From: a virus
Reading direction: 5' to 3' (one strand)
Virus record (IMG/VR): IMGVR_UViG_3300007619_000003
Span: 1-53,241 of that record
DNA length: 53,241 nt
Positions 6,012 through 37,728 of the stretch are shown here, piece by piece. Below the pieces are notes generated by a model. It did no database searches, was not told where the DNA came from, and was given only the letters and a program-made list of their open reading frames with translations. The position numbers and the translations under genes were made by a program. Position 1 is the first letter of the stretch. Each line of letters opens with the position of its first letter.

Positions 6012-6235
6012 TCGCCGGTCCCCCTGTTGGCCGCCGCCCGGAGCCGTGATGCGTTCGCCGCGCTCGTCGCCATCGCTTCTGCCATCACTCGTCGCCCGCC
6101 TTCGATCTTGTCGACGTGCTCGACGACGCGAACGCCGCGGCAGTAGTGCTGAAGCCCGCCGCTGGGCATCGCCGGGCAGGGCGAAGTGTAGGTGCCCCAT
6201 GTCCCGCCGCAGACCGAACAACGCGGACGGCTCAC
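6008..6235 (-). CDS. Small Cys-rich protein, probable zinc ribbon
   Basis: The 75-aa frame starts at GTG 6235, forming GTGA with the stop of the SbcC-like gene. Residues 6-9 are Cys-Ser-Val-Cys, followed by Cys19 and His-Tyr-Cys near residues 29-31, a likely zinc site. The remainder is a basic helix ending in an Ala/Arg-rich tail. It is directly coupled to the recombination ATPase, so it may act with it; that is inference. Confidence 0.6.
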   Translation of the reverse strand: MSRPRCSVCGGTWGTYTSPCPAMPSGGLQHYCRGVRVVEHVDKIEGGRRVMAEAMATSAANASRLRAAANRGTGE

Positions 6236-8568
6236 AGGTCCACCCGCGAGTCCGCGAGCTCGGCGAGCTCTGCCGAGTGCGAGACGAAGAGAAGCTTGTC
6301 GGCGCCCATCATCGAGCAAGCCTGGCGGAGCATCGCGATCCAAGCCTGGCCGTTCTCCGGGTCGAGCGCGGCGCCGGCTTCGTCGCGGATGAGCGTCGGG
6401 CGGACGACGCCGAGCTCCCGGGACGCGAGCGTGGTCAGCGCGAGCGAAACGCCCTCGGCGATGATGGCCCGCTCGCCGCCGGAGAACGTCTCCGCCTTCG
6501 ACTCGCGGCCGGACTCGGAGTCGATGACGATGACGTCGAGCGTCTCGAGCGTCTTCTTACCGCGGGAGTCGAGCGACTGGCTCCGGACGTCGACCGTGAA
6601 CCGTGGACCGAAGCTCGAGTGCAGGAGCGAGTTCGTCATTGCGACGAGCTCGGGGAGCGCGGCGTCGATGACCGTGGCCTGCAGGCCGTCCTTGCCGAGA
6701 TCCGCGGCGAGCTTCTTCCAGTCCGCGAGTTCCACGCCGGCGACGGCCGCCTCCCGCTCGAGCTCGGCGAGCTTCTCCGCGCTCTTCTTCGCAGCTTCGA
6801 GTTCGCCCTGGGCGGCGCCGAGTTCCAGCGTCGCCGTCTCGTCCGCCTTCTCCGCGGCGCGGAGAGCCTCGTCGCTGGGGTCGATGCCGGTCACGGGCTC
6901 CGGGATGACGACGGCTCCGGCCGCGCGCTCGAGATCGTCGCGCGTCTCGGTCGCCGCTTCGAGCTGGGGGCCGAGTTCTTCGAGGCGGGCTTCCGCCGCG
7001 GCGAGCGGCTTCGCCAGGCGAGCGGTCTTCTCGAGCTTCGGGAGCCCGGCCTGTAGAGATGTCCGCTCGGCCGTCATCTCAGCGACGCGGTCGTCGAGCT
7101 CTTTCCGCTCCGCCGCGAGCCGGGTCTCCTCGGCGACGAGCTCGGCGAGCCGCGCTTCGCTCTTCCGCTTGTCCTCGGCGTAGCCGGCGAGAGCGTCGGC
7201 GCCGGCGGCGAATCGCTCCGTCTTCCGGAGCTCGTCCTCGAGCGCGCAGCGCTTCCGGTCGACGGCGTTCCGGTCCGCTTCGAGCCGAGCGACTTCATCC
7301 GGGGCGGCGACGGCTTCGTCGTCGCGGGAGAGCGTTGAGCCCGCGGTCTCCCGGGCGGCTTCGATCGACGAGTGCGAGTCCCGGATGGCGGCGAGCCCTT
7401 GCCGGAGCCCGGCGATCCGATCGCCGCTCGAGCGTTCCCGGGCCGCGTTGACTTCCTTCGTCAGCGTCCGGAAGTTGTCGGTCTCCGCGAGCACTCGCTC
7501 CTGGAGCCCGGGGAGTTCGTCGACGGCGGCGCGAACGGCGGCCTCGTTCGAGAGCGCCGCGTCGCAGCGCTGGACGCGGTCCTCGAGCTCCGCCCGTTGA
7601 CGTTCGACGTCGGCTCGTCTCGCGGAGATCCCCCGGAACTGCTGGAGAAGCCCGGTGGTCGAGAGTTCCGCGATGCGCGCGCTCGTCCTCTCGAGCTCGG
7701 TCTCCGCCGCCCGGATCTCGTCGGCCCGCCCGAGTATCGCCCGGTTGTTCGCGACCCGTTGGTCGAGCGCGGTGACGGCTTCGGTCGCCTTCCGTATTTG
7801 CTCCTGCAGCTCGTCGCGGCGCTGAAGCGCGGCGGTTCGCTCGGCGGCGAGCTTGTCCGCCTGGGCGGCGAGCGCCACCATCTGCGCGTGCTTCGCCCGC
7901 TCGTCCGCTACCCGCTCCGCCGCGACGTCCGCCGCCGCCATCTTCAGCTCGACCCGGGTCTCCGCGTCCGCGACGCTGACCGCCCGGTCGCGCTCGCTCT
8001 TGACCCGGTCCGCCGCGACGGTGAAGTCCCCGCTCGCGGAGCTCGCCCGCTTCCGCGCCTCGGCGGCGAGCGCCTCGAGCCGCTCGACGCCGAGCATTCG
8101 GAGCAGGAGCGTCTTCCGGTCCGCCGGGTCCGCGTCGATGAAGCCCTCGCTCTGCTGAGCCGCGATGGTCGTCACGAGCAGAACGTCGAACGGGGGGAAG
8201 TGCTCGGCGACGTACCGGTCGACCGCGGACCGCTTCGTCGACTCGACGAGCGGGCTCCCGTCGCCGTTGGTCAGGAGGGCGTCACCCTTCCGCCCGACGG
8301 AGTCGACGAGCTGCTTGATCCGGTAGCGCTGCCCGTCGTGTTCGAACGTCAACTCGACGAACGCGTCCCGCGCCGTCGCGAGATCGACGAGCGTCCCGCG
8401 GGTCGGCGTCGTCCGGAAGATCGCTCCGGGCATGGTCTCGAGCAGCGTCGACTTCCCGGAGCCGTTCGCCCCGCAGACGGCGACGAGCGGGCCGTGGAGT
8501 TCTTCGAGGTCAACGGCGAAGTCTTCGAACGGGCCGAGTCGATGGATGTGGTGCTTCAGATATCTCAT
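6232..8568 (-). CDS. SbcC/Rad50-like ATPase (T4 gp46 type)
   Basis: A 778-aa SMC-type ATPase, the partner of the Mre11-like nuclease encoded upstream; the pair resects DNA ends for recombination-dependent replication. Walker A Gly-Ala-Asn-Gly-Ser-Gly-Lys-Ser-Thr lies at 33-41. The ABC signature Phe-Ser-Gly-Gly-Glu is at 695-699, Walker B Asp-Glu at 729-730 with the D-loop Ala-Leu-Asp, and the switch Val-Ser-His-Ser near 763. Long heptad-rich coiled coils fill 180-620. I see no CxxC zinc hook at the apex, and the protein is shorter than E. coli SbcC (1048 aa). Start ATG 8568 has an AGAGG site upstream. Confidence 0.9.
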   Translation of the reverse strand: MRYLKHHIHRLGPFEDFAVDLEELHGPLVAVCGANGSGKSTLLETMPGAIFRTTPTRGTLVDLATARDAFVELTFEHDGQRYRIKQLVDSVGRKGDALLTNGDGSPLVESTKRSAVDRYVAEHFPPFDVLLVTTIAAQQSEGFIDADPADRKTLLLRMLGVERLEALAAEARKRASSASGDFTVAADRVKSERDRAVSVADAETRVELKMAAADVAAERVADERAKHAQMVALAAQADKLAAERTAALQRRDELQEQIRKATEAVTALDQRVANNRAILGRADEIRAAETELERTSARIAELSTTGLLQQFRGISARRADVERQRAELEDRVQRCDAALSNEAAVRAAVDELPGLQERVLAETDNFRTLTKEVNAARERSSGDRIAGLRQGLAAIRDSHSSIEAARETAGSTLSRDDEAVAAPDEVARLEADRNAVDRKRCALEDELRKTERFAAGADALAGYAEDKRKSEARLAELVAEETRLAAERKELDDRVAEMTAERTSLQAGLPKLEKTARLAKPLAAAEARLEELGPQLEAATETRDDLERAAGAVVIPEPVTGIDPSDEALRAAEKADETATLELGAAQGELEAAKKSAEKLAELEREAAVAGVELADWKKLAADLGKDGLQATVIDAALPELVAMTNSLLHSSFGPRFTVDVRSQSLDSRGKKTLETLDVIVIDSESGRESKAETFSGGERAIIAEGVSLALTTLASRELGVVRPTLIRDEAGAALDPENGQAWIAMLRQACSMMGADKLLFVSHSAELAELADSRVDL

Positions 8569-8645
8569 GAGGGGACCTTCCTCTTCTGGGGGGAGGGGGC
8601 GAGGGGGGCCGACGGTAGAGTGGCGACGGCGACGGGTCCAGTCAC
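8565..8645 (-). CDS. 26-aa micro-ORF linking two genes
   Basis: GTG 8645 overlaps the stop of the 19-aa micro-ORF (GTGA), and its TGA overlaps the ATG of the SbcC-like gene (ATGA). The product is Pro/Ala-rich with a Lys-Arg-Lys near the end. The most likely role is to keep ribosomes moving by termination-reinitiation from the nuclease gene to the ATPase gene, although the ribosome-binding site of the ATPase gene also lies within it. A stable product is not implied. Confidence 0.35.
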   Translation of the reverse strand: MTGPVAVATLPSAPLAPSPQKRKVPS

Positions 8646-8701
8646 CGGCGGCGGACCGTGATGACGCGTAGCGCGCCCGCGATCTTCTCGGCGTCGCTCA
8701 C
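8642..8701 (-). CDS. 19-aa micro-ORF after the Mre11-like gene
   Basis: Starts at GTG 8701 in a GTGA overlap with the stop of the SbcD-like gene and ends in a GTGA overlap with the next micro-ORF. It encodes a peptide ending in Val-Arg-Arg-Arg. Together with the 26-aa ORF it bridges the 130-nt gap between nuclease and ATPase genes with no untranslated base. Confidence 0.35.
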   Translation of the reverse strand: MSDAEKIAGALRVITVRRR

Positions 8702-9852
8702 GACGCCTCCAGGTCGTGGAGCTTCGCGAGAAGCGGGTCGCGTCGGCCAACGCAGTCGTCGTTCGTCGAGTCCCAGTAGGCGACCAGCTTGTCGGCCACG
8801 GACAGAGCCCGTGCGACTTCCGGAGCCCGCGCCCGGGTCTCGATGCGGAGACGGTCCTCGACCTTCACCGTAGCGCCCGCGCCCCGGAGCTGCTCGGCTC
8901 GAGCTTCCGCCGCCGCCCTCGCCGGCTCCCGCTCGCTCGCCGCGACGTCGTACCGGAGCCGGACCTCGGCGCCAGCTCCGATTTGCGCGAGCTGCTCGGC
9001 CGTCAGATCCGTCACGAGCTCGCCGTCCTTCCACTCGCCCGAGACGTGGAGCATGGGCGGCGCCGGCGTCGGAATGCGATCCCACTCGACGCAGTGATTC
9101 CCGTCGAACGTAGCGACCACGTACCCCTTGTCCTCCGTCTCACCGAAGTTGCACCGGCGGGGCGAGCCCGGATAGACGACGGGGACGCGCCAGTTGCCGG
9201 CGTCGATCGCCCACTCCTGGCCGAGGTGGATGTGGCCGAGCGCCACGAAGTCCGCTTCCGCGCAGGCCAGGTCGTCGAGCGAGAGTTCGAGTTCCTGGCC
9301 GACGAGAGGCGGCTGGCTCGTACTCGTTCTACTCCCCCGGACCATCGCGTGAGAGAGAAGAATCCGCGGCTCCTCGTCCCGGGCCATCCCGCCCCAGCCG
9401 GTCAGGATGGCGCGCAGAGCGGTCTTCGCGTCGTCTTCTCCATTCCCCGCGTGTCCGGGCGGGAGCGACGCGAGTAGGTGCGCCGTCCGCGGCCAGGGCA
9501 GGAGGCAGAAGCGGAACCCGCCGAGTCGGATGGTCGCCGGCGACGAAGCCGCCCAGATGTCGTGGCCCCCAGCGAGCCGGTTCAGGAGGTCGATGTCGCG
9601 CGGGTCGTCGTGGTTGCCGGCGACGACGGCCAGCGGCATCTCGTCCGTGACGGCGGTCATCCACTCGGCGACCGCGATGCGTTCCTCCGATGTGCTCCGC
9701 CGTTCGAACACGTCGCCGGCGTGAGCCATCGCGTCGCAGCCCCGGGCCGCCGCGTCGGCGGCGATCCAGAGCATGATCCGCTTGTAGTCCTCGAAGCGGC
9801 TCCGCCCGTCAGCATGGGTATCGGCCACGAGCGCTAGTTTTCGGATGGTCAC
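8698..9852 (-). CDS. SbcD/Mre11-like nuclease (T4 gp47 type)
   Basis: A 384-aa calcineurin-fold phosphoesterase, the catalytic half of the SbcCD/Mre11-Rad50 complex. Metal-binding motifs are visible in order: Asp11-Thr-His13, Gly-Asp-Val-Phe (46-49), Gly-Asn-His-Asp (79-82), Leu-Leu-Ser-His, and Gly-His-Ile-His. The C-terminal part is the capping/ATPase-binding region. The start is at ATG 9852, overlapping the upstream stop. It sits in one operon with the ATPase and a possible annealing protein, consistent with end resection followed by strand annealing during phage replication. Confidence 0.9.
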   Translation of the reverse strand: MTIRKLALVADTHADGRSRFEDYKRIMLWIAADAAARGCDAMAHAGDVFERRSTSEERIAVAEWMTAVTDEMPLAVVAGNHDDPRDIDLLNRLAGGHDIWAASSPATIRLGGFRFCLLPWPRTAHLLASLPPGHAGNGEDDAKTALRAILTGWGGMARDEEPRILLSHAMVRGSRTSTSQPPLVGQELELSLDDLACAEADFVALGHIHLGQEWAIDAGNWRVPVVYPGSPRRCNFGETEDKGYVVATFDGNHCVEWDRIPTPAPPMLHVSGEWKDGELVTDLTAEQLAQIGAGAEVRLRYDVAASEREPARAAAEARAEQLRGAGATVKVEDRLRIETRARAPEVARALSVADKLVAYWDSTNDDCVGRRDPLLAKLHDLEAS

Positions 9853-22600: not shown

Positions 22601-22749
22601 AGCTGGCGATTGAAGGGCAGTGGCTCGCCCCGAGGCGCTGCCCGAAGTGCCGACGGCTCATGTACGCTCACACTTGCGCGACCGATGACCGCTGCCAGCC
22701 TTGCCGTAACGCCGACCCGGAAGCGCGCCCGGAGCGGGGGCGGTCGTGA
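22597..22749 (+). CDS. Small zinc-ribbon protein, 50 aa
   Basis: GTG 22597 in a GTGA overlap. Cys-Pro-Lys-Cys (15-18), His-Thr-Cys and Cys-Gln-Pro-Cys form a compact zinc site in a basic protein. Its stop overlaps the GTG of the HerA-like ATPase. Confidence 0.55.
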   Translation: MKLAIEGQWLAPRRCPKCRRLMYAHTCATDDRCQPCRNADPEARPERGRS

Positions 22750-24449
22750 AGCTCCGTCTCGCGGACGGGCTCTCGATGGACGCGAGCGAAGCGGCGACGC
22801 AGACGTTCGCGGCGCTCGCGGGGAAGGGCCAGGGCAAGAGCTACCTCGCGGGGAAGTTCGTCGAGCAGCTCGTCGGGGCGAGCTGCCCGACCGTCGTCGT
22901 CGAGCCCGTCGGGAACTGGTGGCCGCTCCGGCTCGGGAAGGACGGCAAGTCGCCGGGGCTCCCGATCGTCGTGATCGGCGGAGAGCACGGAGACGTCCCG
23001 GTCGAGCCGACGCAGGGCGCGGAAGTCGGGCGGTTCCTCGTCGAGACGAACGGCTCGGCCGTGATCGACGTCTCCGGCTTCTCGAAGACGAAGCGGCAGT
23101 CGTTCGTCGCCGACTTCGCCGAAGCGTTCTACATCGCGAGCCGGAAGGCGGCGACGCCCCGGATGCTCGTCCTCGAAGAGGCGCAGGTCTTCGCGCCCCA
23201 GCACGCGGCGCGCGGCCAGGAGCGGATGCTCGGCGCGATGACGGACATCGTCCGGCTCGGTCGCAACCACGGGATCGGGTCGATGCTCGTCAGCCAGCGG
23301 CCGCAGAGCGTCTCGAAAGAAGTCCTGAACATGGTCGAGTGCCTGTTCGTCGGCGGGATGCGCGGCCCGCACGAGCGGAAGGCGATCGCGGGCTGGGTGA
23401 CGGAGCAAGCCGACGGCGAGGGAGAAGTCGCGGCGCAGCTCCGGCGGCTCCCGGAACTCCAGCCCGGGGACTTCTTCTGCTGGTCCCCGTCCTGGCTCTC
23501 CGTCGCGAAGCCGATCCGCGTTCTGCCGAAAGACACCTTCGACGGGACGTCGACGCCGAAGCTCGGCGGCTCACGTGCGCGGGCGCCGAAGCTCGCCCCG
23601 GTCGACGTCAGCGCGCTGACCGCCGCGCTCACCCCGCCCGCGAAGGAGCCGCCGAAGCCGGGGAGCGGGCCGTCGAACCACGCGCATGTCGAGCGGGAAC
23701 TCCGGGGCGAGCTCGCCGAAGCGAAGCGGCGTCTAGCGGCTTCGCTCGCGGAGGGCGCCGAGCTCCGGGAAGGGCTCCGTCAGATACACGCGGCGCTCGA
23801 CCGACTTCTTGCGACGATGGAAAGCACGACGCTCGGGAAGAGTTTCCCGGGCGAGCCTGTGCCGGCGAATGGGCGCGGAGACGCGGAGCAGGGGGGATGG
23901 GCTCCCCGCCCGCCCGCGCTCGCTCTCGCCGCCGGCGACGACGCCGCTACGGTAGGCGGGCGCCCGACGAAGAACGGGGCTAGCGCGTCGGGAGACTACG
24001 CGCTCGCCCTTCTCCGCTCGCTCGTCGCCTACGGGCCGTCGACGCGGCTCCGGCTCTCGCTCGTCTCCGGGAAGAGCCGGACGAGCTCGACGTTCGCCGC
24101 CGCGCTCCGGGAGCTGAAGGCGGTCGGGCTCGTCGAAGAGTCCAGCGGGGAGCTACGCGCAACCGCGGACGGGAAGCAGAGCGCCGGGAAGGTCGCCGTC
24201 CCGAAGGGTTATGAGCTCTTCGACCACTGGTGCGCGCGGCTCGCCGCGTACGACCGCAGGAACTTCCAGGTGCTCGCCGGTCGCGCCCGGGGGTACACTC
24301 GGGCAGAGCTATCGGACATGACCGGCCACTCCCGGACGAGCTCGTCGTTCGCGGCGAGTCTCCGGCGGCTCCGTGGGCTCGGCCTGGTCAGCGAGTCCGG
24401 CGGCGCGTTACGTATCAGCGACCAAGCGAAGGAGACGATGGAGCTATGA
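22746..24449 (+). CDS. HerA/FtsK-type ATPase with duplicated winged helices
   Basis: A 567-aa protein. The N-terminal domain matches HerA/DUF87 DNA-translocating ATPases: Walker A Gly-Lys-Gly-Gln-Gly-Lys-Ser (26-32), Walker B Leu-Val-Leu-Glu-Glu-Ala-Gln (141-147) and Val-Ser-Gln-Arg-Pro-Gln (182-187). A charged Ala/Glu helical linker follows. Two similar winged-helix units are at about 420-480 and 505-565, both with Arg-Thr-Ser-Ser-(Ser/Thr)-Phe-Ala-Ala and a Gly-Leu-Val-(Glu/Ser)-Glu-Ser strand. In archaea HerA works with NurA, Mre11 and Rad50; this phage also encodes Mre11/Rad50 homologues. DNA-end processing or translocation is the likely role. Confidence 0.75.
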   Translation: MKLRLADGLSMDASEAATQTFAALAGKGQGKSYLAGKFVEQLVGASCPTVVVEPVGNWWPLRLGKDGKSPGLPIVVIGGEHGDVPVEPTQGAEVGRFLVETNGSAVIDVSGFSKTKRQSFVADFAEAFYIASRKAATPRMLVLEEAQVFAPQHAARGQERMLGAMTDIVRLGRNHGIGSMLVSQRPQSVSKEVLNMVECLFVGGMRGPHERKAIAGWVTEQADGEGEVAAQLRRLPELQPGDFFCWSPSWLSVAKPIRVLPKDTFDGTSTPKLGGSRARAPKLAPVDVSALTAALTPPAKEPPKPGSGPSNHAHVERELRGELAEAKRRLAASLAEGAELREGLRQIHAALDRLLATMESTTLGKSFPGEPVPANGRGDAEQGGWAPRPPALALAAGDDAATVGGRPTKNGASASGDYALALLRSLVAYGPSTRLRLSLVSGKSRTSSTFAAALRELKAVGLVEESSGELRATADGKQSAGKVAVPKGYELFDHWCARLAAYDRRNFQVLAGRARGYTRAELSDMTGHSRTSSSFAASLRRLRGLGLVSESGGALRISDQAKETMEL

Positions 24450-25076: not shown

Positions 25077-25478
25077 GTGGAGCCGCCGACGCCAAGCGTT
25101 ACGGGCGGGGAGACGTGGGCGAGCGTCTTCGGTTACTGCGGGAAGTGCGGTCGTCGGCTTGTCGCGGCCCGGACGGCGGACGGTCCATGGTTCTACGGTT
25201 GCCGCGCCTGCCATCCGAGCGAGCCGACGAGCGAACTCGTCGAGCGAGCGAAGAGCGTCCAGCGCCGGCTCTGGGCGACCATGGAAGCCGAACAGGAGAG
25301 GTGGCTACGCGGCGCCGCGTTCCGCGCCATCGCCCGCGCCTGGTACGTCAACGGCGGTCCCTACTGGCTCCGCCGCCCGCGCCGCTGGGCTCGCGCCTAC
25401 CGCTGGGCGCTCCGCCTACTCGGCGTCGACGTCGCGCTCGCCGTCGCCCTGGCGGTCGCCCGCTGGTGGCTCGGATGA
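25077..25478 (+). CDS. Zinc-ribbon protein with C-terminal membrane span
   Basis: A 133-aa protein from GTG 25077. Cys-Gly-Lys-Cys-Gly (21-25) and Cys-Arg-Ala-Cys-His (42-46) form a ribbon. A basic Arg/Trp-rich helix is followed by a hydrophobic Val/Ala/Leu segment at 116-132. It may tether DNA or protein to the membrane. Together with the protein at 22373 it makes two membrane-linked zinc ribbons in this block. Confidence 0.55.
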   Translation: MEPPTPSVTGGETWASVFGYCGKCGRRLVAARTADGPWFYGCRACHPSEPTSELVERAKSVQRRLWATMEAEQERWLRGAAFRAIARAWYVNGGPYWLRRPRRWARAYRWALRLLGVDVALAVALAVARWWLG

Positions 25479-26275
25479 AGCTCTTCGCCGGGCAGGTGGA
25501 AGTAATCGGCGGCGCCCGTGGGGGCCGGCGCTACCACGTCTCGAGACCCGGCGACCAGCGGCACCCAGCCTGCTCGTGGGATCGGACGCTCACGAACGAA
25601 TGCGAGCCGGCGCAAGTCCCCCTCGTTCTTCGCTGCCAGCGGCCAGGGTGTAAGCAGCTGTGGCCGCCGGAGTCGCCGAGAAGCGACGGGAAGAAGCCGC
25701 CCGAAGCGAAGCCCGCGATCGAAGTTCGCGTCGCGGAGAACCCGGAGCGCTTCGACCCGCAGGCGGGAACGCGCATTCTCGGGATCGACCCGGGCTTCCG
25801 CTTCGTCGGTATCGGGGTCATCGTCATCACGCCGACGGCCGTCCGATGCGTCCACAGCGAGCGGTTCGTCACGAAGCCGAGCGACGGGAAGCCCGGGCGG
25901 CGGCTCGACATGATCGCGGTCCGCATTCACGACGTCATCTCCCGCGAGCTCCCCGACTGCGTCGGCATCGAGAACGTCTCCAACGTCGGGCACGGCAAAG
26001 GGGAGACGAACGCGGCGAGCTCCGAGATGCTCAAAGTCCCGGGCATCGTCCGCGGGCTCGCGGTGGTCTACGGCGGCGTCCCCGTCTTCGACATAGCGAC
26101 GTCAACCGCCCGCGTGGCGACGTTCGGGAAGGGGAACAGCCGCGGCAAGACGAAGAGCGACGTGGTCACGGCGGTCCAGCGCATCTGCGGATTCCGCCGG
26201 AAGCCAAACCAAGAAGTAGCGGAAGCGATCGCGGTAGCCTTCGGCGCGTTCCGCCAGTACCATTCGATGCGATGA
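25475..26275 (+). CDS. RuvC-like Holliday junction resolvase
   Basis: A 266-aa protein from ATG 25475 (ATGA overlap). An N-terminal region of about 100 residues contains four Cys (possible zinc site), then a RuvC/RNase H fold: Ile-Leu-Gly-Ile-Asp-Pro-Gly (catalytic Asp about 107), Val-Gly-Ile-Glu-Asn-Val (second acidic residue) and Asn-Gln-Glu-Val-Ala-Glu-Ala-Ile-Ala, where two Glu replace the usual Asp pair. It probably resolves branched DNA before packaging. The order resection, annealing, HerA, resolvase gives a nearly complete recombination set. Confidence 0.8.
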   Translation: MKLFAGQVEVIGGARGGRRYHVSRPGDQRHPACSWDRTLTNECEPAQVPLVLRCQRPGCKQLWPPESPRSDGKKPPEAKPAIEVRVAENPERFDPQAGTRILGIDPGFRFVGIGVIVITPTAVRCVHSERFVTKPSDGKPGRRLDMIAVRIHDVISRELPDCVGIENVSNVGHGKGETNAASSEMLKVPGIVRGLAVVYGGVPVFDIATSTARVATFGKGNSRGKTKSDVVTAVQRICGFRRKPNQEVAEAIAVAFGAFRQYHSMR

Positions 26276-26794: not shown

Positions 26795-27112
26795 ATGCCG
26801 GGCGAGCCAGCAGGCGGGAGAACGCGGTCGGCGGAGGACGTCGAGGCCGACCGAGCGGAGCAGGCGGAGCTCGCCGCGCTCTGCGGCCAGCGTCTGAAGG
26901 CGGCCCGGAAGCACCGCGGTTGGACGCAGTACGACCTCGCGGAGAAGAGCGGCATCTTTCAGGGCCACATCTCCCACTTCGAGTGCGGCATCCGCGTCCC
27001 GCTCGTTCGGAACTTATTAAAGCTCGCCGATGCGCTGGGCCGCTCGACGGACTTTCTTCTCGGTCGCACGACCATCGAGCTCCCCGACCCACCGGCGAAG
27101 AAGTCGACCTGA
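26795..27112 (+). CDS. XRE-family transcription regulator
   Basis: A 105-aa protein; ATG 26795 chosen because the predicted transcript begins there (a GTG 9 nt earlier and TTG 26756 are alternatives). The helix-turn-helix at about 28-85 is clear: Gln-Arg-Leu-Lys-Ala-Ala-Arg-Lys, Trp-Thr-Gln-Tyr-Asp-Leu-Ala-Glu-Lys-Ser-Gly, Ile-Ser-His-Phe-Glu-Cys-Gly, Leu-Leu-Lys-Leu-Ala-Asp-Ala-Leu, Asp-Phe-Leu-Leu-Gly. It heads the modification operon and could time its expression. Its TGA overlaps the next ATG. Confidence 0.8.
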   Translation: MPGEPAGGRTRSAEDVEADRAEQAELAALCGQRLKAARKHRGWTQYDLAEKSGIFQGHISHFECGIRVPLVRNLLKLADALGRSTDFLLGRTTIELPDPPAKKST

Positions 27113-27759
27113 TGGCAGCGAAGAAGAAGCGCGCGGCAAAGAAGACCCGGGCCCGGCCGCAGGCCAAGGTGACGGGGAAGGTCGTCATGGCCCGGCTCGA
27201 CCGCGTCCGCCCGAACGACTGGAACCCGAACCGGATGACCGAGTTCCAGATGGAGTCGACCCGCGAGGGTATGCGGACCGGCGGCTGGCTCGCCGCGTAC
27301 GCGCTCCTGGTCTGGGGGAAGGACGAGAAGGGGAAGCGCCGCGACGTCATCATCGACGGCGAGCATCGCTGGCGGATCGCGAACGAGCTCGCGATGCCCG
27401 AAGGGCCGATGGTCTTTCTCGACGGGCTGACCGAGAGAGAAGCGAAGAAGCTGACCATCGCGCTCGACAACAAGCGGGGCGACTTCGACCGCGTCGCGCT
27501 CCGGGACCTGATCGGCGACATCGGCGTCGTCGACGGTCTCGGCTTCGAGCTCGGCTTCGACGAGGCGAGCTTCACGGCCCTGATGGACCCGGGGAACCCG
27601 CTCCCCCCGGGCGACTTCTCGTCCGTCGACATCAACGCGAAGACCACTTACTGCTGCCCGAAGTGCGGCTATGAGTGGAACGGCGCCCCTGCGGCGAAGA
27701 CCGCGAAGAAGACCGCGAAGAAGAAGACGAGCAGGCGAGCGGCATCGGCGGGAGCGTGA
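27112..27759 (+). CDS. ParB-domain protein with zinc ribbon
   Basis: A 215-aa protein (TGATG start overlap). Basic Lys-rich N-terminus (1-20), then a ParB/sulfiredoxin-type domain: Asp-Arg-Val-Arg-Pro-Asn-Asp-Trp-Asn-Pro-Asn (30-40), Ile-Ile-Asp-Gly-Glu-His-Arg (80-86) and Thr-Ile-Ala-Leu-Asp-Asn (115-120). A short Cys-Cys-Pro-Lys-Cys motif (181-185) and a second Lys-rich tail follow. In phages such domains are often next to DNA methyltransferases and may bind nucleotide, cut or recognise DNA. Its stop overlaps the methyltransferase GTG, so the two are co-translated. Confidence 0.75.
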   Translation: MAAKKKRAAKKTRARPQAKVTGKVVMARLDRVRPNDWNPNRMTEFQMESTREGMRTGGWLAAYALLVWGKDEKGKRRDVIIDGEHRWRIANELAMPEGPMVFLDGLTEREAKKLTIALDNKRGDFDRVALRDLIGDIGVVDGLGFELGFDEASFTALMDPGNPLPPGDFSSVDINAKTTYCCPKCGYEWNGAPAAKTAKKTAKKKTSRRAASAGA

Positions 27760-28892
27760 AGCCGCCGTTCCGGCTCCCGTCGATGGCCGAAGTCGCGGCG
27801 GCGCGCGGTACCGCCGGGCTGACCGTCGCCTCGACGTTCGCCGGCTGCGGCGGCTCCTGTCTCGGCTTCGAGATGGCCGGCTTCCGAACGGTCTGGGCGA
27901 ACGAGTTCGTCCCCGCGGCGCGCGAAGTCTACGCGGCGAACCACCCGGGCGTTCCGCTCGATGACCGCGACATCCGGAAGGTCCAGCCCGCCGACGTCCT
28001 GGGCGCCGTCGGGCTCGAGCGCGGCGAGCTCGACGTCCTGAACGGCTCCCCGCCCTGCGCGTCGTTCTCCATGAGCGGAAAGCGAGACGCCCACTGGGGG
28101 GAGGTCAAGAAGTATTCGGATAGGAAGCAGCGGACCGACGACCTGTTTTTCGAGTTCGTCCGTCTGCTCGACGGAATCCAGCCCCGGGCGTTCGTCGCGG
28201 AGAACGTAGCGGCGATCACGCAGGGGGTGGCGGTCGGATACTTCAAGGAGATCGTCCGCGCGCTCGAGGGCGCCGGCTACCGCGTCGCCTGCCGGATACT
28301 CGACGCTCAGTGGCTTGGGGTTCCTCAGACCCGGCGGCGAGCGATCATCCTCGGCGTCCGAAAGGATCTCGACCGAGAGCCCGACTTCCCGAAGCCACTC
28401 GGCTATCGGTACTCACTCCGCGACGTTCTCCCCGACCTGAAGCGCCGCGCCGCGATGGTCGGTCCCGGGCTCGTCCGCGACGGCTCCATCGTCGGGACGG
28501 CCATCGAGAAAGAGTGGCGGAAGCTTACCCCGTACCGGGGTAAGCTCCGAGAGTGGGCGCGGCTCCACCCGGGGCAGAAGTCGAGCAAGTACCTGAACCT
28601 GATCCGCGCGAGCCCGGACGAGCCCTCGCCGTGCATCACCGCCGCCGGCGGCGGGCGGGGCGTCGCGTCGGTCACGCACCCGTACGAGCCGCGGAAGTTT
28701 TCGATCGACGAGCTCCGCCGGGTCTGCGGCTTCCCCGCCGATTTCGTTCTGACGGGTACGTATCAGCAGCAGTGGGAGCGACTCGGCCGCGCAGTCCCGC
28801 CGCCGATGATGCGCGCCGTCGCGGCCGCGCTCCGGGACGGGCTCTTCACCGAGCTCGACCGGACGCGGCGGAAGTTCCGGGAGGCGAGCTGA
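27756..28892 (+). CDS. C5 cytosine DNA methyltransferase, motif X Asn replaced by Arg
   Basis: A 378-aa Dcm-type enzyme from GTG 27756. All catalytic motifs are intact: I Phe-Ala-Gly-Cys-Gly-Gly (28-33), IV Gly-Ser-Pro-Pro-Cys (catalytic Cys101), VI Glu-Asn-Val (149-151), VIII Gln-Thr-Arg-Arg-Arg (191-195), target-recognition region about 240-310. Motif X, normally Gly-Asn-(Ala/Ser)-Val-Pro-Pro, reads Leu-Gly-Arg345-Ala-Val-Pro-Pro. In engineered M.MpeI, Lys or Arg at the motif X Asn permits use of carboxy-SAM. With a CmoA-like gene overlapping by one base, I infer that this enzyme transfers a carboxymethyl group to cytosine C5. Ordinary methylation is the alternative. Confidence 0.9.
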   Translation: MKPPFRLPSMAEVAAARGTAGLTVASTFAGCGGSCLGFEMAGFRTVWANEFVPAAREVYAANHPGVPLDDRDIRKVQPADVLGAVGLERGELDVLNGSPPCASFSMSGKRDAHWGEVKKYSDRKQRTDDLFFEFVRLLDGIQPRAFVAENVAAITQGVAVGYFKEIVRALEGAGYRVACRILDAQWLGVPQTRRRAIILGVRKDLDREPDFPKPLGYRYSLRDVLPDLKRRAAMVGPGLVRDGSIVGTAIEKEWRKLTPYRGKLREWARLHPGQKSSKYLNLIRASPDEPSPCITAAGGGRGVASVTHPYEPRKFSIDELRRVCGFPADFVLTGTYQQQWERLGRAVPPPMMRAVAAALRDGLFTELDRTRRKFREAS

Positions 28893-29596
28893 TGGCCGAC
28901 GAGAGTTCGATCGGGCATCTGCCCGACGGGAAGTGGGAGTTCGACATGAGCGTGACCCGGGTCTTCGACGACATGATCGCGCGGAGCATTCCGCAGTACG
29001 ACGCGCTTCGCGGTCTCGTCGCTTCGCTCGCCCGGCGCTTCGGCGCCGATGGCGGGACCGTCCTCGACCTCGGATGCTCGACGGGCCTCTCCATCGAAGC
29101 GCTCGCCGGGAAGGCTCGCCGCGTCGTCGGCGTCGAGATCAGCGAGTCGATGCTCGACGTCGTCCGCACGAAGTTCGTCAGCTACGGGAACGTGGAGATC
29201 GAAGCGCTCGACCTCCGCCACGACTTCCCGGAGATCGATGGCGTCGACGTCGCGCTCGCCGTCTTCACGCTACAGTTCGTCCCGGTCGAGTACCGCGCCG
29301 GGGTCGTCCGCCGGGTCTTCGACTCGCTGGCTCCCGGCGGGGCGTTCATCGTCGCGGAGAAAGTCCTCGGCGAAACGGCGACGACGCAGGCGGCGTTTGT
29401 CGACGTCTATCACGCGTTCAAGGAAGAGCAGGGCTACAGCCGGGAAGAAGTCGACCGGAAGGCGCTCTCGCTCGAAGGACGACTCGTCTCCCTGACCCCG
29501 GCCGGCAACGAGGGTCTACTCCGCGCCGCTGGCTTCTACCGCGCCGAGTGCTTCTGGCGCTGGGCGAACTTCACGGCCTGGCTGGCCATCAAGTAG
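28892..29596 (+). CDS. CmoA-like enzyme, predicted carboxy-SAM synthase
   Basis: A 234-aa class I SAM-fold protein matching CmoA along its length: Phe-Asp-Asp-Met-Ile-Ala-Arg-Ser-Ile-Pro (25-34), motif I Val-Leu-Asp-Leu-Gly-Cys-Ser-Thr-Gly (57-65), Phe-Thr-Leu-Gln-Phe-Val-Pro (125-131), Leu-Ala-Pro-Gly-Gly, Ala-Glu-Lys (155-157), His-Ala-Phe-Lys-Glu-Glu-Gln-Gly-Tyr-Ser (174-183), and an Ala-Gly-Phe/Asn-Phe end. CmoA converts SAM and prephenate into carboxy-SAM. The residue aligned with E. coli Arg199 is Ala191, with Arg189 and Arg197 nearby, so substrate binding may differ. TGATG overlap couples it to the methyltransferase. Confidence 0.8.
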   Translation: MADESSIGHLPDGKWEFDMSVTRVFDDMIARSIPQYDALRGLVASLARRFGADGGTVLDLGCSTGLSIEALAGKARRVVGVEISESMLDVVRTKFVSYGNVEIEALDLRHDFPEIDGVDVALAVFTLQFVPVEYRAGVVRRVFDSLAPGGAFIVAEKVLGETATTQAAFVDVYHAFKEEQGYSREEVDRKALSLEGRLVSLTPAGNEGLLRAAGFYRAECFWRWANFTAWLAIK

Positions 29597-29601
29597 GCGC
29601 C

Positions 29602-30201
29602 GTGGCGGGTCGACCGAAGCGGCGCTCGAAGAAGAAGCTCGAGGAGTCTGCGCGCGAGAAGCGGGCGCGGGAGACGCTCCAGGCGGAGCGGCTCGAGCAG
29701 GAGCAGATGATCCTGACGACGATGAGCCAGGGGCGCTGGGTCCCGGGGGTTACGCCCCTCCAGCTAGCGAAGCAGTGGGGCGTGACGCAGAACGTCGTCG
29801 TTCAGCTCTCGCGGAAAGCGAGCGCGACGCTCCGGTCGCTCTCGAAGATGACGCCCGAGTTCCGGGAAGAAGTCCTCGCCGAGTGTCTCCAGACCTTCCG
29901 GACGATCCGGGCGTTCGCCCTCTCGAAGGCCTCGGTCCCCGACGAGCGGAACCCGGCGCCGCTACTCGACGTCGCCCTGCGGGCCACGCGCGCCCTCGGG
30001 CAGTACACTGGGGTGGAGCCCGATGGCCGACGCGACGACGACGACAAGACGCACGACCCGTTCAGCGGCTGGAGCCGGCAAGAAATCGAAGACTACGTCT
30101 CGGGCCGGAAAGCCCGACGCGCGCTCCCGGAAGGCGTCGGCGAGTTCGAAACGATCGGCGAAGAAGTCGACGACGAGAGCGGCGAAGCCGCCGTCCACTG
30201 A
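29602..30201 (+). CDS. Terminase small subunit (probable)
   Basis: A 199-aa protein from GTG 29602. It has a basic N-terminus, then a helix-turn-helix (about 52-75: Leu-Gln-Leu-Ala-Lys-Gln-Trp-Gly-Val-Thr-Gln-Asn-Val-Val-Val-Gln-Leu) and a helical oligomerisation region ending in an acidic tail. It is followed at once by the large terminase, so it should bind the packaging site. The last 179 nt also encode the N-terminus of the large subunit in another frame. Confidence 0.7.
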   Translation: MAGRPKRRSKKKLEESAREKRARETLQAERLEQEQMILTTMSQGRWVPGVTPLQLAKQWGVTQNVVVQLSRKASATLRSLSKMTPEFREEVLAECLQTFRTIRAFALSKASVPDERNPAPLLDVALRATRALGQYTGVEPDGRRDDDDKTHDPFSGWSRQEIEDYVSGRKARRALPEGVGEFETIGEEVDDESGEAAVH

Positions 30202-31714
30202 CCTCCGGAGCCTGAGCGACGACGAGCTCCGGACGCGCGCGCTCGCGCGCCGGCGGCTCGACGAGATGGACGCCGAGTTCGATCTCCGGACGTTCATGAG
30301 CCTGTACTCCCCACGGCTCGGGGACCCGTACCATCTCGCCGAGCTCTGCGAAGCGCTCGACGAGTCGATGAAGCGCCCGGTCATCATCCTCGCGGAAGCG
30401 CCGCCCCGTCACTGGAAGACGGTGACGATTCTCCACCACATCGCGCGACGGCTGAAGTACCGCCCGACCGAGCAAAACGCGTACGGGACTTACTCCGGCG
30501 GGCTCGCGTTCCGGAAGTCCCGGCTCTGCCGCGAGTACGCGGGACGCGCCGGCGTCTTCGCTCGACCGGCGGAGCTCCACCTCGGCCCGGGCGAGAAGGC
30601 GAAGGACCCGGCGGCGACGGTCAGCTTCTGGCAGACGCCGCAGGGCGGCGGGCTCGTCGCCGGCGGCCGCCACGGCGCGTTCGTCGGCGAGGGCTTCGGG
30701 TTCATCTACATCGACGACCCGTTCAAAGACCGGCCGGAAGCGGAGTCGGAGAAGATTCAGGACGCGGTTTACGAGGGGATGTTCCAGGGGACGATGTTCA
30801 CCCGTCTCGAGCCGGGCGGTTCGATCTGCATCTCCCACCAGGCGTGGAACGACCGCGACCTGAACGCCCGGCTCCGCGAGTGGGCGGTCGAAGAAGGGCT
30901 CGGCGCCGAGGTCATCGACATCCGACTGCCCGCCGTCTCTCGCGCGACGTACGACCGGCGCGGGCGCCTGACCGGCGGCGTCCCGCTCCACCCGGGGCGC
31001 TACAACATCCGCGCGCTCCGGCGGATCCAGCAGGCGATCAGCGACTACAACTTCGAGAGCCAGTACCAGCAGAAGCGGGTCCCGCGCGGTAAGCGGATCT
31101 TCGTCGAGCCGCAGATGTACGACGAGCCGAACTTCGACGGCGCGATCGTCCTCGTCTCCTGCGACCCGGGCATCGTCAAAGACAAGAAGAAGGACCCGAG
31201 CGGGTTCGTCGTTACGTCGGGCTATCTCGACCGCGGCGGCTCGGTCTGCATGGACGTCCTGTTCGCCGAGGAGCGCCATGAGGAGATCCCCGAGACGGTC
31301 GACGCGCTCGAAGAACTCCACGAGGACTTCTTCCACTCGCCGATCCTGCTCGAGGAAGTCTCGGCGTTCAAAGCGGTCAGCCAGATCGCGCGACGGCTCG
31401 ACCAGGAGCGGACGAAGCGGGGCGAGCAGCCCGCGAACCTTCCCATCGAGAGCTGGCTCCCGGAGGGTTCGAAGTTCGTCCGCGCGCTCCCCTGCGCCGG
31501 CGGCGTCCGCTTCGGTCGCGTCCGGGTCCCGAAGACCGGCTTTTGGGTCCCGGCTTTCCGGAAGCAGATGCGGCGGTTTACCGGCCGAGAGGGCGGAAAG
31601 GACAACATGATCGACGCCCTGACCCAGGCGTACGACTGGTACGACAAGAATCTCGCGAGCGCCGGGCTCCGCTCCCGGACCGGCGGAGAGCGGGAGATGG
31701 CCTCAGGATTCTGA
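30023..31714 (+). CDS. Terminase large subunit
   Basis: Packaging ATPase-nuclease, 563 aa from ATG 30023, which has a GGTGGAG site; ATG 30266 downstream of the small-subunit stop is an alternative. The Walker A loop reads Ala-Pro-Pro-Arg-His-Trp131-Lys-Thr, with Trp where Gly is usual. Walker B is Phe-Ile-Tyr-Ile-Asp-Asp-Pro-Phe (about 227-234). The RNase H-like nuclease has Ser-Cys-Asp-Pro-Gly, Leu-Leu-Glu-Glu-Val and Asp-Asn-Met-Ile-Asp-Ala-Leu. The first 60 residues are Ser/Thr/Lys/Arg-rich and may be non-functional if the later start is used. Confidence 0.9.
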   Translation: MADATTTTRRTTRSAAGAGKKSKTTSRAGKPDARSRKASASSKRSAKKSTTRAAKPPSTDLRSLSDDELRTRALARRRLDEMDAEFDLRTFMSLYSPRLGDPYHLAELCEALDESMKRPVIILAEAPPRHWKTVTILHHIARRLKYRPTEQNAYGTYSGGLAFRKSRLCREYAGRAGVFARPAELHLGPGEKAKDPAATVSFWQTPQGGGLVAGGRHGAFVGEGFGFIYIDDPFKDRPEAESEKIQDAVYEGMFQGTMFTRLEPGGSICISHQAWNDRDLNARLREWAVEEGLGAEVIDIRLPAVSRATYDRRGRLTGGVPLHPGRYNIRALRRIQQAISDYNFESQYQQKRVPRGKRIFVEPQMYDEPNFDGAIVLVSCDPGIVKDKKKDPSGFVVTSGYLDRGGSVCMDVLFAEERHEEIPETVDALEELHEDFFHSPILLEEVSAFKAVSQIARRLDQERTKRGEQPANLPIESWLPEGSKFVRALPCAGGVRFGRVRVPKTGFWVPAFRKQMRRFTGREGGKDNMIDALTQAYDWYDKNLASAGLRSRTGGEREMASGF

Positions 31715-34524: not shown

Positions 34525-37500
34525 GTGGCGAAGCGGCGAAGACGACGCAAGCGGTATAACGACGGCCAGCAGCTGAGGGGCGTCGAGGCGGTGCAGCCGG
34601 CGCACGGCATTCTCAGGGGCCGCTACTTCCCGAACGTCCCGCGGGAAGAGGCGTACCGCCCGCACTTCGGCCGGTCGCTCACTCTCCAGACGATCGACGC
34701 GGCCATCCGGTCGCTCGAGGTGGGACTGATGCGCCGGTTCACCGACATCGCGACGGAGTCGCTACGGCTCGACCTCCACGCGTCGGCTCTTTGGCAGAAA
34801 CGTCTCAACCGGCTCGGCGCGCTCGACTGGCGCGTGAAGCCGGCGAGCGGCGATGGGGTCGAAAAGCAGCGGGCAGAGGACTACGCAGGCTTTGTGCGCC
34901 AACAGCTCGAGCAGATGCCGAGCTTCCGTCAGGTGTTACTCGACGCCAACCAGGCGACGTTTCACGGGCGCTCCGCCGGCGAGCTCGAGTGGGAGCTCGT
35001 CCGATCCCGCTGGCGCGTCTGCGACGTCCACTGGATTCACGCACGACGTCTCTCGTTCGGGCCGAACCGCGACCTGCGCATTATCGACCTCAACCGCGAG
35101 GTCGCCGACTTTCGGGACGAGGGCTTCGCCCTCGAGACGATCCCGTACAAGTTCCTACCGTACAAGCCGCGCATCTTCGGCGAGTACCCCGAGCGCGAAG
35201 GGCTCGCTCTCCGCTCGACGTTCTGGTCGTTCTTCGGTCGGGTCATGGAGCGGGAGCGGCTCCATCTCATCGAGATCTTCGGCAAGCCCTGGCGCGTCGG
35301 GATCGTCAAGGACTCGGCGAAGAACGGCACGACCATCAACCAGGACCAGATCGACGACGCGTTCGATTCGCTCAACCGACTCGGGGGACACTCTACCGCC
35401 GTCCTGCCCCTCGACATGGATCTGCTGATCGCTCAGCCGCAGCGGGGCGCGGGAGAGATTCACGAGCAGGCGATCGACCATGTCGAGAAAGCTCAGTCGA
35501 AGCTCTTCCTCGGCGGTACCGCGACGACGGACGCCGTCTCGACCGGACTCGGATCGACCATCGGGGACGCGCACACGAACGAAGAAGATCTCATCATCGC
35601 GAGCGACGCCTGGCGGCTCTCCGAGGTCATCGAGCGGTTCCTGACGGACGCGATCATCGTCGTCAACTTCGGCCCGGAAGCTATCACTCACGCTCCCGAG
35701 TTCGAGGTCGTTACCGAGCCGCCACTCGACCGCGCCGCGGAAGCCGAGCTGATCGACAAGACGCTCTCGGTCGGAGTGGATATCGCGCTTTCCGAAGCGC
35801 GCGAGCGGCTCGGCGTACGCGAGATCGACCCGGACGAGCCGTATCTCCGGAAGGCACCGCGCAACCTGAATGGCCAGGTCCCCGCCTACCTACCCCAAGC
35901 CGAGGTGATCTACCCAAGCGGGCTCCCGGACGCCGGTAGGATCCGAGACGTCCCGGAAGTCCCGGGCGCGTTCCCGATCGGCGAGCGCCCGCTCCCGCCT
36001 GAAGACCCGCTCGCTAGCGGCTTCGGCGATGGCCCCCCCCGGCTACCCCCGGCGCCGGACAACCCGGCCCTACCACCCGTCGGAGAGACGGTAACCGCCA
36101 GCGAGGACGAGCTCGGCGACGCGGACATCGAAGCGCTCGCCGCGCAGATGACGGAGCACCGCGTTCAGAAGTGCGCTCACGGCCACAAGAACCGCTGCTG
36201 GAAGTGCGGCGTCGAGCGGGTCCGCGGTCTCGAGCTCGACGACGACGGGACGCCGCTGACCGACGCCGACGGCGAGCACGTCTGGCAGGTAGCCTGGCGA
36301 CCTATCAAGAAAGTGGCGAGCGCGCGCCGACTCGCGTCGACCGCGCCCGGCTCCGATGGAGGGCTACACGCGCACCGGCTCGACCGGGCGGAAGAGAGTA
36401 CGGCTCTCGACGGGCCGCACGCGCACGCGTACCGGCTCCCCGGGGGGCAGGTCGTTTACACGGAGATCGGCGGAGCGCATGAACATGAGATCGACCGGCA
36501 CGGCGACTTCGTCTGGGGCGGCCGGCACGCCCACTGGCTGACGCTCCCGAGCGGGGACCGGCTCCGGACGGAAGTCGACGGGGACCACTCCCACGACCTC
36601 CTGGTCGACGAGACCGCCCCTGGTGGCATGCACTGCCATGCGCTCGTTCTCCCCGACGGCGCGACGGTCGAGAGTCTACGCGTCCGGGATGCGGTCGACG
36701 ATGGACTCGGGCTCCGGGCGACGGCGACGGCGGTCGAGCGCTACGGCGGGACGGTCTGTCTCGCGGAGCAGCCCTCGACCGTCTTCGGCTCCCCTGATGA
36801 CCTGATGAAGCGCGGCGTCCCGGACGTCGCGAAGGCGATGGGCTCGTTCGCGGCGCGCATCGCGAACGCCGTCGACGGGAAGAAGACGCCCCGGGCGATC
36901 CGTTCGGCGCTCGCCGGTATCCGGAACCCGGAGCGGGGCGCGGTCCGCGAAGCGCTCCGCCGCGAGCTTCTAACCGGGCTGATGCTCGGCGCGCTCGACT
37001 CCGCGTTCGAGGGGGACGAAGAAGTCGAGATCGAAGTCGAGACGTTTAGCGCGCTTCAGGCGGAGGTCCGGCGGCTCCTGACGTCGCGGAAGCTACTCGT
37101 CGATACCGATCCGAAGTTCGTCGAGCACCCGATGGCGGAGGCGATTCGCGTCTTCGAGAGCCGCGAGGTCGTCACGCCGGAGGTCTTTCGGGAGCTGAAC
37201 TCCGTCGCTCGCCAGCGGGCGTTTACCATCGCCGGTCTCGCCGACGAAGAGCTGCTCGCCACCGCCCGGGCGGAGCTGAGCCGCCGTATCAAGGAGGGCG
37301 CTGACCTCGCGAACTTCCGGGATTTCGTCGCGGAGCGGCTCGAGGGCGCGGGCTGGACGCCGACGAACGCGTCGCACGTCGAGACGATCTTCCGGAACAA
37401 CGTCCAGGCAGCCTACTCGGGCGGGCGGTGGCGTCAGATGAGCCAGCCCGACGTCGCCGACGCGCGCCCGTACCTCCAGGTGCTCACGCCCAACGACGGC

Positions 37501-37728
37501 CCGCCCCGCCAGCGCCCGAACCATCAGGCGACTCACGGGAAGATCTTCCGCGTCGATGACCCCGCTTTTCCCGCCGCTCTCCCGCCCTGGGACCACAACT
37601 GTCGGTGCCGTATCCGCTCGCTTTCGAAGCGACAACTCGCAGGGCGACGAGCGACGAACGGGTCGTGGCTCTCGTCTCAGGGGCTACCCGCTCCGGGCTT
37701 CGGAGGGGGCGCGGCGGGCTTCGCTTGA
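34525..37728 (+). CDS. Portal (Mu gp29-like) fused to F-like head morphogenesis protein, with His-rich insert
   Basis: A 1067-aa fusion. Residues 1-460 match the DUF935/Mu gp29 portal family (Ile-Phe-Gly-Lys-Pro-Trp-Arg-Val-Gly, Lys-Leu-Phe-Leu-Gly-Gly). Residues about 460-760 form a Pro-rich linker, a Cys-His motif (Cys-Ala-His-Gly-His, Cys-Trp-Lys-Cys-Gly, about 550) and at about 613-710 five His-x-His units (His-Ala-His, His-Ala-His, His-Glu-His, His-Ser-His, His-Cys-His) spaced some 20 residues apart. Residues 770-1060 match Mu gpF/SPP1 gp7, ending in Pro-Pro-Trp-Asp-His-Asn-Cys-Arg-Cys. In Mu these are two genes. Confidence 0.85.
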   Translation: MAKRRRRRKRYNDGQQLRGVEAVQPAHGILRGRYFPNVPREEAYRPHFGRSLTLQTIDAAIRSLEVGLMRRFTDIATESLRLDLHASALWQKRLNRLGALDWRVKPASGDGVEKQRAEDYAGFVRQQLEQMPSFRQVLLDANQATFHGRSAGELEWELVRSRWRVCDVHWIHARRLSFGPNRDLRIIDLNREVADFRDEGFALETIPYKFLPYKPRIFGEYPEREGLALRSTFWSFFGRVMERERLHLIEIFGKPWRVGIVKDSAKNGTTINQDQIDDAFDSLNRLGGHSTAVLPLDMDLLIAQPQRGAGEIHEQAIDHVEKAQSKLFLGGTATTDAVSTGLGSTIGDAHTNEEDLIIASDAWRLSEVIERFLTDAIIVVNFGPEAITHAPEFEVVTEPPLDRAAEAELIDKTLSVGVDIALSEARERLGVREIDPDEPYLRKAPRNLNGQVPAYLPQAEVIYPSGLPDAGRIRDVPEVPGAFPIGERPLPPEDPLASGFGDGPPRLPPAPDNPALPPVGETVTASEDELGDADIEALAAQMTEHRVQKCAHGHKNRCWKCGVERVRGLELDDDGTPLTDADGEHVWQVAWRPIKKVASARRLASTAPGSDGGLHAHRLDRAEESTALDGPHAHAYRLPGGQVVYTEIGGAHEHEIDRHGDFVWGGRHAHWLTLPSGDRLRTEVDGDHSHDLLVDETAPGGMHCHALVLPDGATVESLRVRDAVDDGLGLRATATAVERYGGTVCLAEQPSTVFGSPDDLMKRGVPDVAKAMGSFAARIANAVDGKKTPRAIRSALAGIRNPERGAVREALRRELLTGLMLGALDSAFEGDEEVEIEVETFSALQAEVRRLLTSRKLLVDTDPKFVEHPMAEAIRVFESREVVTPEVFRELNSVARQRAFTIAGLADEELLATARAELSRRIKEGADLANFRDFVAERLEGAGWTPTNASHVETIFRNNVQAAYSGGRWRQMSQPDVADARPYLQVLTPNDGPPRQRPNHQATHGKIFRVDDPAFPAALPPWDHNCRCRIRSLSKRQLAGRRATNGSWLSSQGLPAPGFGGGAAGFA

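Follow-up and report, generated by a model that had tools for sequence, protein, structure and literature searches.

A predicted CmoA–CmoX cassette for cytosine carboxymethylation in the operon of a tailed phage

Natural 5-carboxymethylcytosine (5cxmC) was described in December 2025 by Yang et al., who reported CmoA, CmoX, the two-step pathway and a structure, and who collected 5,615 candidate CmoX sequences, partly from IMG/VR (PMC12783734). In Synechococcus phage S-B43, SpCmoX is a proven DNA cytosine C5-carboxymethyltransferase on the evidence of LC-MS, phage DNA analysis and a crystal structure with bound carboxy-SAM (PDB 8YF3). In the same phage, CmoY caps the carboxymethyl group with glycine, and the glycyl form is the only one present in the phage DNA (PMC12783734). 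A carboxymethyltransferase has also been engineered: in the CG-specific M.MpeI N374K, a basic residue in place of the motif X Asn permits the use of carboxy-SAM (cited in PMC12783734). The system analysed here is thus not new in kind. A sequence-only reading of this DNA, which knew of no described natural enzyme of this sort, has been wrong on that point since December 2025, and its view of tRNA cmo5U as the only known use of carboxy-SAM is outdated, natural-product biosynthesis being cited as well (PMC12783734). The base 5cxmC was until recently described as unnatural, and the present locus would be an independent, divergent natural example. From its sequence and by analogy with S-B43, the locus is very probably a CmoA–CmoX DNA-modification cassette making 5cxmC in a tailed phage with a tail sheath.

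Genomic setting and operon structure

The window, that is the whole stretch of DNA analysed, corresponds to a linear IMG/VR virus record of 53,241 bases with 69% G+C, a fragment whose right end is cut. Its recognisable tailed-phage genes encode the large terminase, portal, Mu-like protease, major head protein, tail sheath, tape measure and baseplate hub. A phage-wide nucleotide comparison gave no match to the window, matches of its large terminase reach only 29%, and a genome scan yielded five distant MAG loci from mixed phyla. The modification operon and the terminase genes that follow it are arranged as listed below.

26795..27112, + strand: HTH (Cro/cI-type) regulator, first gene of the operon (Pfam HTH_3, E=9.5e-14)
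27112..27759, + strand: ParB-like (ParBc/PF02195-type) protein, 215 aa (phrog_620, E=2.4e-15; phrog_723, 2.1e-13)
27756..28892, + strand: CmoX homologue, predicted DNA cytosine C5-carboxymethyltransferase, 378 aa (8yf3 first by sequence and fold)
28892..29596, + strand: phage-type CmoA homologue, predicted carboxy-SAM synthase, 234 aa (CmoA structures first by sequence and fold)
29602..30201, + strand: putative small terminase subunit, placed by its position between CmoA and the large terminase
30266..31714 (start unsure, possibly 30023), + strand: large terminase subunit (phrog_38, E=3.9e-44)

The sequence-only reading had described a complete C5-methyltransferase (MTase) gene joined to a CmoA-like gene by a TGATG overlap in a four-gene operon, and the coordinates and junctions bear this out to the base. 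The HTH gene overlaps the ParB-like gene by one base (TGATG), and the latter overlaps the MTase gene by four bases (GTGA). The MTase gene runs from a GTG start at 27756 to a TGA stop ending at 28892; this start is preferred over an upstream in-frame GTG at 27675 because of the conserved N-terminal 'KPPYRVPSM' block of the family. The CmoA-like gene begins with ATG at 28892, sharing one base with the MTase gene (TGATG), and its TAG stop ends at 29596. The putative small terminase gene, supported by a coding model, begins 5 bp further on, and its product (29602..30201) has no Pfam or PHROG match. The ParB-like assignment is PHROG-based, the Pfam ParB_N match (E=0.07) failing the cut-off. A ParB-like gene adjoins CmoX in most relatives, and the ParBc association of CmoX was already reported (PMC12783734); it is a typical partner in CmoX cassettes.

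Several other genes of the window are of separate interest. A 1045-aa protein (34591-37728, +) appears to be a one-frame fusion of portal (phrog_113) and minor head protein (phrog_220), and a phage-encoded SbcC-like/SbcD-like pair (phrog_77, phrog_100) lies at 6232-9852 (-). Upstream of the modification operon are a P-loop ATPase and a RuvC-like resolvase (22746-24449 and 25475-26275, +). The ATPase has a terminase-like PHROG match and is possibly HerA/VirB4-like; a separate large terminase is encoded downstream.

The methyltransferase and its CmoA-like partner

The MTase matches Pfam DNA_methylase with E=1.5e-54. Among all PDB entries, its best sequence match is 8yf3 (E=2.5e-63), followed by DNMT1 (3e-25), and the fold search with its AlphaFold model (pLDDT 82) is also led by 8yf3 (E=2e-31). 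In ordinary C5-MTases, motif X reads GN(A/S)V. The window protein carries Arg345 in place of this Asn, within ...QQWERLGR345AVPPPMM..., so that the motif X change noticed in the sequence-only reading is real. Arg345 is invariant in two alignments of relatives and aligns on Arg350 of SpCmoX, which replaces Asn304 of HhaI, touches the carboxymethyl group and serves Yang et al. as the diagnostic residue (PMC12783734). The other carboxy-SAM contacts of SpCmoX (Phe25, Glu47, Phe48 and Asp69) and its nucleophile Cys98 (PMC12783734) correspond to Phe28, Glu50, Phe51, Asp72 and Cys101 of the window protein (hand-counted numbering), all invariant in the two alignments. Cys101 sits in an SPPC motif, as expected of a CmoX. 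By its sequence and modelled fold, the MTase is a CmoX, with a predicted activity as DNA cytosine C5-carboxymethyltransferase.

The CmoA-like protein has its top PDB sequence matches in the CmoA structures 1im8 (E=1.4e-29), 4gek (1.3e-27) and 4iwn. CmoA structures likewise top the fold search with its AlphaFold model (pLDDT 92.7), ahead of all other methyltransferases. In addition, it matches the PHROG 'tRNA methyltransferase' family phrog_4752 (E=8.4e-64). Against NCBIfam TIGR00740 it scores 151.3 bits, under the equivalog cut-off of 193.3, a cut-off that does not define phage CmoA, since the proven-active SpCmoA scores lower still (115.6). The window protein retains the cofactor and active-site residues Tyr39, Asp62, Ser66 and Glu164, together with the invariant Lys165, Lys185 and Lys198. 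It also carries Arg223 (Gln231 in E. coli), which is near-constant in phage CmoAs of its type. Sequence and model together predict a carboxy-SAM synthase of phage type.

One residue calls for caution about the activity of this enzyme, though it is not a defining one for phage CmoA. Arg199 of E. coli CmoA binds the carboxylate of the carboxymethyl group through a salt bridge (PMC3663124), and the window protein has Ala191 at this position. Arg199 is absent from 14 of 42 phage CmoAs of the window type, among them SpCmoA, which has Glu there and outpaces the E. coli enzyme tenfold in the assay of Yang et al. (PMC12783734). The missing Arg199 and the sub-cut-off score exclude no function, because the active SpCmoA fails on both counts. 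The Ala191 substitution nonetheless admits a reading in which CmoX carboxymethylates DNA while the window CmoA is inactive and host CmoA provides the carboxy-SAM; E. coli CmoA alone does feed SpCmoX in vivo (PMC12783734). We regard this as improbable, given the highly active SpCmoA among the phage enzymes lacking Arg199 and the seven retained residues named above. Arg223 might, speculatively, anchor the carboxylate in Arg199's stead. Viewed across 135 loci, two types of phage CmoA can be told apart: one in which Arg199 is usual (28/42), and one, mostly with a shorter C-terminus, in which Glu199 is almost fixed (89/93). Both types travel with Arg-type CmoX.

Pairing of the motif X residue with cmoA among relatives

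The comparison covers 295 loci. Most were gathered via the MTase alone, a choice that avoids enriching for cmoA; L002, L003 and L009 were retrieved with CmoA instead. The motif X residue was taken from the profile-alignment column, six loci being unreadable, and a cmoA homologue was counted within 8 kb. Arg occupies motif X in 194 loci, and 186 of these have a cmoA homologue; in the remaining eight, CmoX always lies about 1.3 kb or less from the end of the available DNA. The search for phages with CmoA beside a C5-MTase, suggested in the sequence-only reading, is thus strongly positive. The two genes, wherever they occur together, share one strand in every case and stand a median of 29 bp apart. 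Within the same 8 kb, cmoA was found in none of the 29 loci with Asn at motif X and in none of the 65 loci of a more distant class with Met (GMSVPP). Fisher's test of Arg against Asn gives 2e-29, a value that overstates the evidence because of the relatedness of the loci. Parsimony on trees places four to five changes between Arg and Asn, two to three of them on well-supported branches. The presence of cmoA shifts along with the residue in nearly all independent pairs and runs counter to it in none, the pairs being too few for a significance test. Taken together, the comparison gives strong support to the coupling of MTase and CmoA proposed in the sequence-only reading.

The Asn-type close relatives of CmoX without cmoA (among L051, L053, L054, L067, L069, L074, L075, L083 and L154-L193) are natural controls for the evolution of cofactor choice. 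The pairing of motif X Arg with cmoA suggests a one-residue rule that would sort phage C5-MTases into methyl- and carboxymethyltransferases. The Met class comprises 65 viral loci (among L224-L291; for example, L246 and L251), most of which adjoin a ParB-like gene and many of which lie near a terminase.

This pattern bears on two simpler readings of the locus. The first is an ordinary 5mC methyltransferase that happens to adjoin an unrelated SAM-dependent methyltransferase. Both proteins belong to large superfamilies and carry the generic annotations 'DNA methyltransferase' and 'tRNA methyltransferase'; however, the MTase has Arg345 instead of Asn, its closest Asn relatives have no cmoA in any of the 29 loci, and CmoA structures outrank all other methyltransferases for the partner by sequence and fold. 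We therefore consider this reading very improbable. The second assigns the window protein the classical role of CmoA (PMC3663124), raising host tRNA cmo5U through the host CmoB, with the adjacency to the MTase being incidental. The contig has no CmoB (PF08003), as the sequence-only reading had stated, and no tRNA genes, which makes the tRNA pathway an unlikely purpose. Moreover, cmoA accompanies the Arg-type MTase at close to 190 loci, and the chance that its adjacency is incidental appears close to negligible. DNA carboxymethylation by a CmoA–CmoX pair remains the preferred reading.

Proposed pathway, end product and comparison with known systems

In the proposed pathway, CmoA would convert SAM and host prephenate to carboxy-SAM. 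CmoX would flip out the target cytosine, and Cys101 would attack C6; transfer of the carboxymethyl group to C5, followed by beta-elimination, would give 5cxmC. Arg345 of motif X would grip the donor carboxylate and thereby select carboxy-SAM over SAM. Use of carboxy-SAM to the exclusion of SAM, with GC as target, is the activity expected of a CmoX. The use of CmoA-made carboxy-SAM by a C5-MTase on cytosine, as proposed in the sequence-only reading, is supported: this chemistry is established for the nearest characterised homologues, SpCmoA and SpCmoX (PMC12783734), and by analogy would extend to the window proteins, which keep the diagnostic Arg and the contacts.

No match to an Asn-synthase-type ligase (PF00733, the CmoY type) was found in the 53-kb contig, whereas all 14 control genomes were positive, and Pfam scans of 20 further window genes revealed no ligase. 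Bare 5cxmC is therefore the predicted and most likely end product. This prediction rests on the absence of a ligase. The base would shield phage DNA from restriction, in line with the reported block of HhaI by 5cxmC (PMC12783734). Such a compact ligase-free cassette would be a simple two-enzyme source of carboxylate-bearing DNA.

In a different outcome, 5cxmC is only an intermediate that an unseen or unrecognised ligase, or a host enzyme, turns into an amide, as CmoY does in S-B43, where the DNA carries the glycyl form only (PMC12783734). Of the 67 Arg-type loci flanked by over 3 kb on each side, 37, about half, have a CmoY-like gene near CmoX and 30 lack one, as counted with a five-seed profile that may miss divergent ligases; the contig is also cut at its right end. 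Against this stand the silence of PF00733 over the contig and the lack of a ligase in the close-synteny relatives L003 and Moraxella phage Mcat8 (L007). Moreover, a second MTase and a UDG-like ORF are the only recurring candidates for a replacement hypermodification gene in the cassettes. We judge the capped product to be rather unlikely here and retain bare 5cxmC as the preferred product. Capping is a modular add-on, since the ligase is gained or lost about 32 times on the first tree. Four loci have the ORF resembling uracil-DNA glycosylase (about 156 aa, judged by eye) within the CmoA–CmoX cassette (for example, L143:7516-7974).

A wider proposal joins these points, and we hold it tentatively, with slightly less than even confidence. 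Uncapped 5cxmC would be the final DNA base in this phage lineage, whose CmoA would hold the carboxylate without Arg199, perhaps via Arg223. The ParB–MTase–terminase slot would act as a switchboard, in which a motif X Asn/Arg change together with cmoA loss or gain would have swapped methylation and carboxymethylation, in either direction and more than once.

Compared with known systems, the window MTase shares the fold and the catalytic motifs IV, VI and VIII with C5 methyltransferases of the HhaI/HaeIII type, but has Arg345 in place of the motif X Asn304. A basic residue at this Asn is also the feature of the engineered M.MpeI N374K, whereas the window CmoX occurs in nature and has a CmoA of its own as partner. 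With the E. coli CmoA/CmoB tRNA cmo5U pathway, the locus has in common the CmoA fold and most cofactor residues; it differs in having neither CmoB nor Arg199 and in its DNA-modification context. The S-B43 CmoA–CmoX–CmoY system (PDB 8YF3; L005) likewise combines a CmoX containing SPPC and the motif X Arg with a CmoA in the same operon. Relative to S-B43, the window lacks CmoY, its operon is headed by HTH and ParB-like genes and followed by terminase, its CmoX and CmoA are about 39% and 30% identical, and position 199 of CmoA is Ala rather than Glu. Mcat8 and the viral contig L003 share the window's order of ParB-like gene, CmoX, CmoA, small terminase and large terminase, without a ligase. Their CmoX proteins are 43% (Mcat8) and 57% (L003) identical to that of the window, the host lineage differs, and the Mcat8 CmoA is of a shorter, diverged type. 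To the described systems, our analysis adds the near-exact pairing of motif X Arg with cmoA, set against Asn-type controls, a contig with no ligase and a CmoA in which Arg199 is missing.
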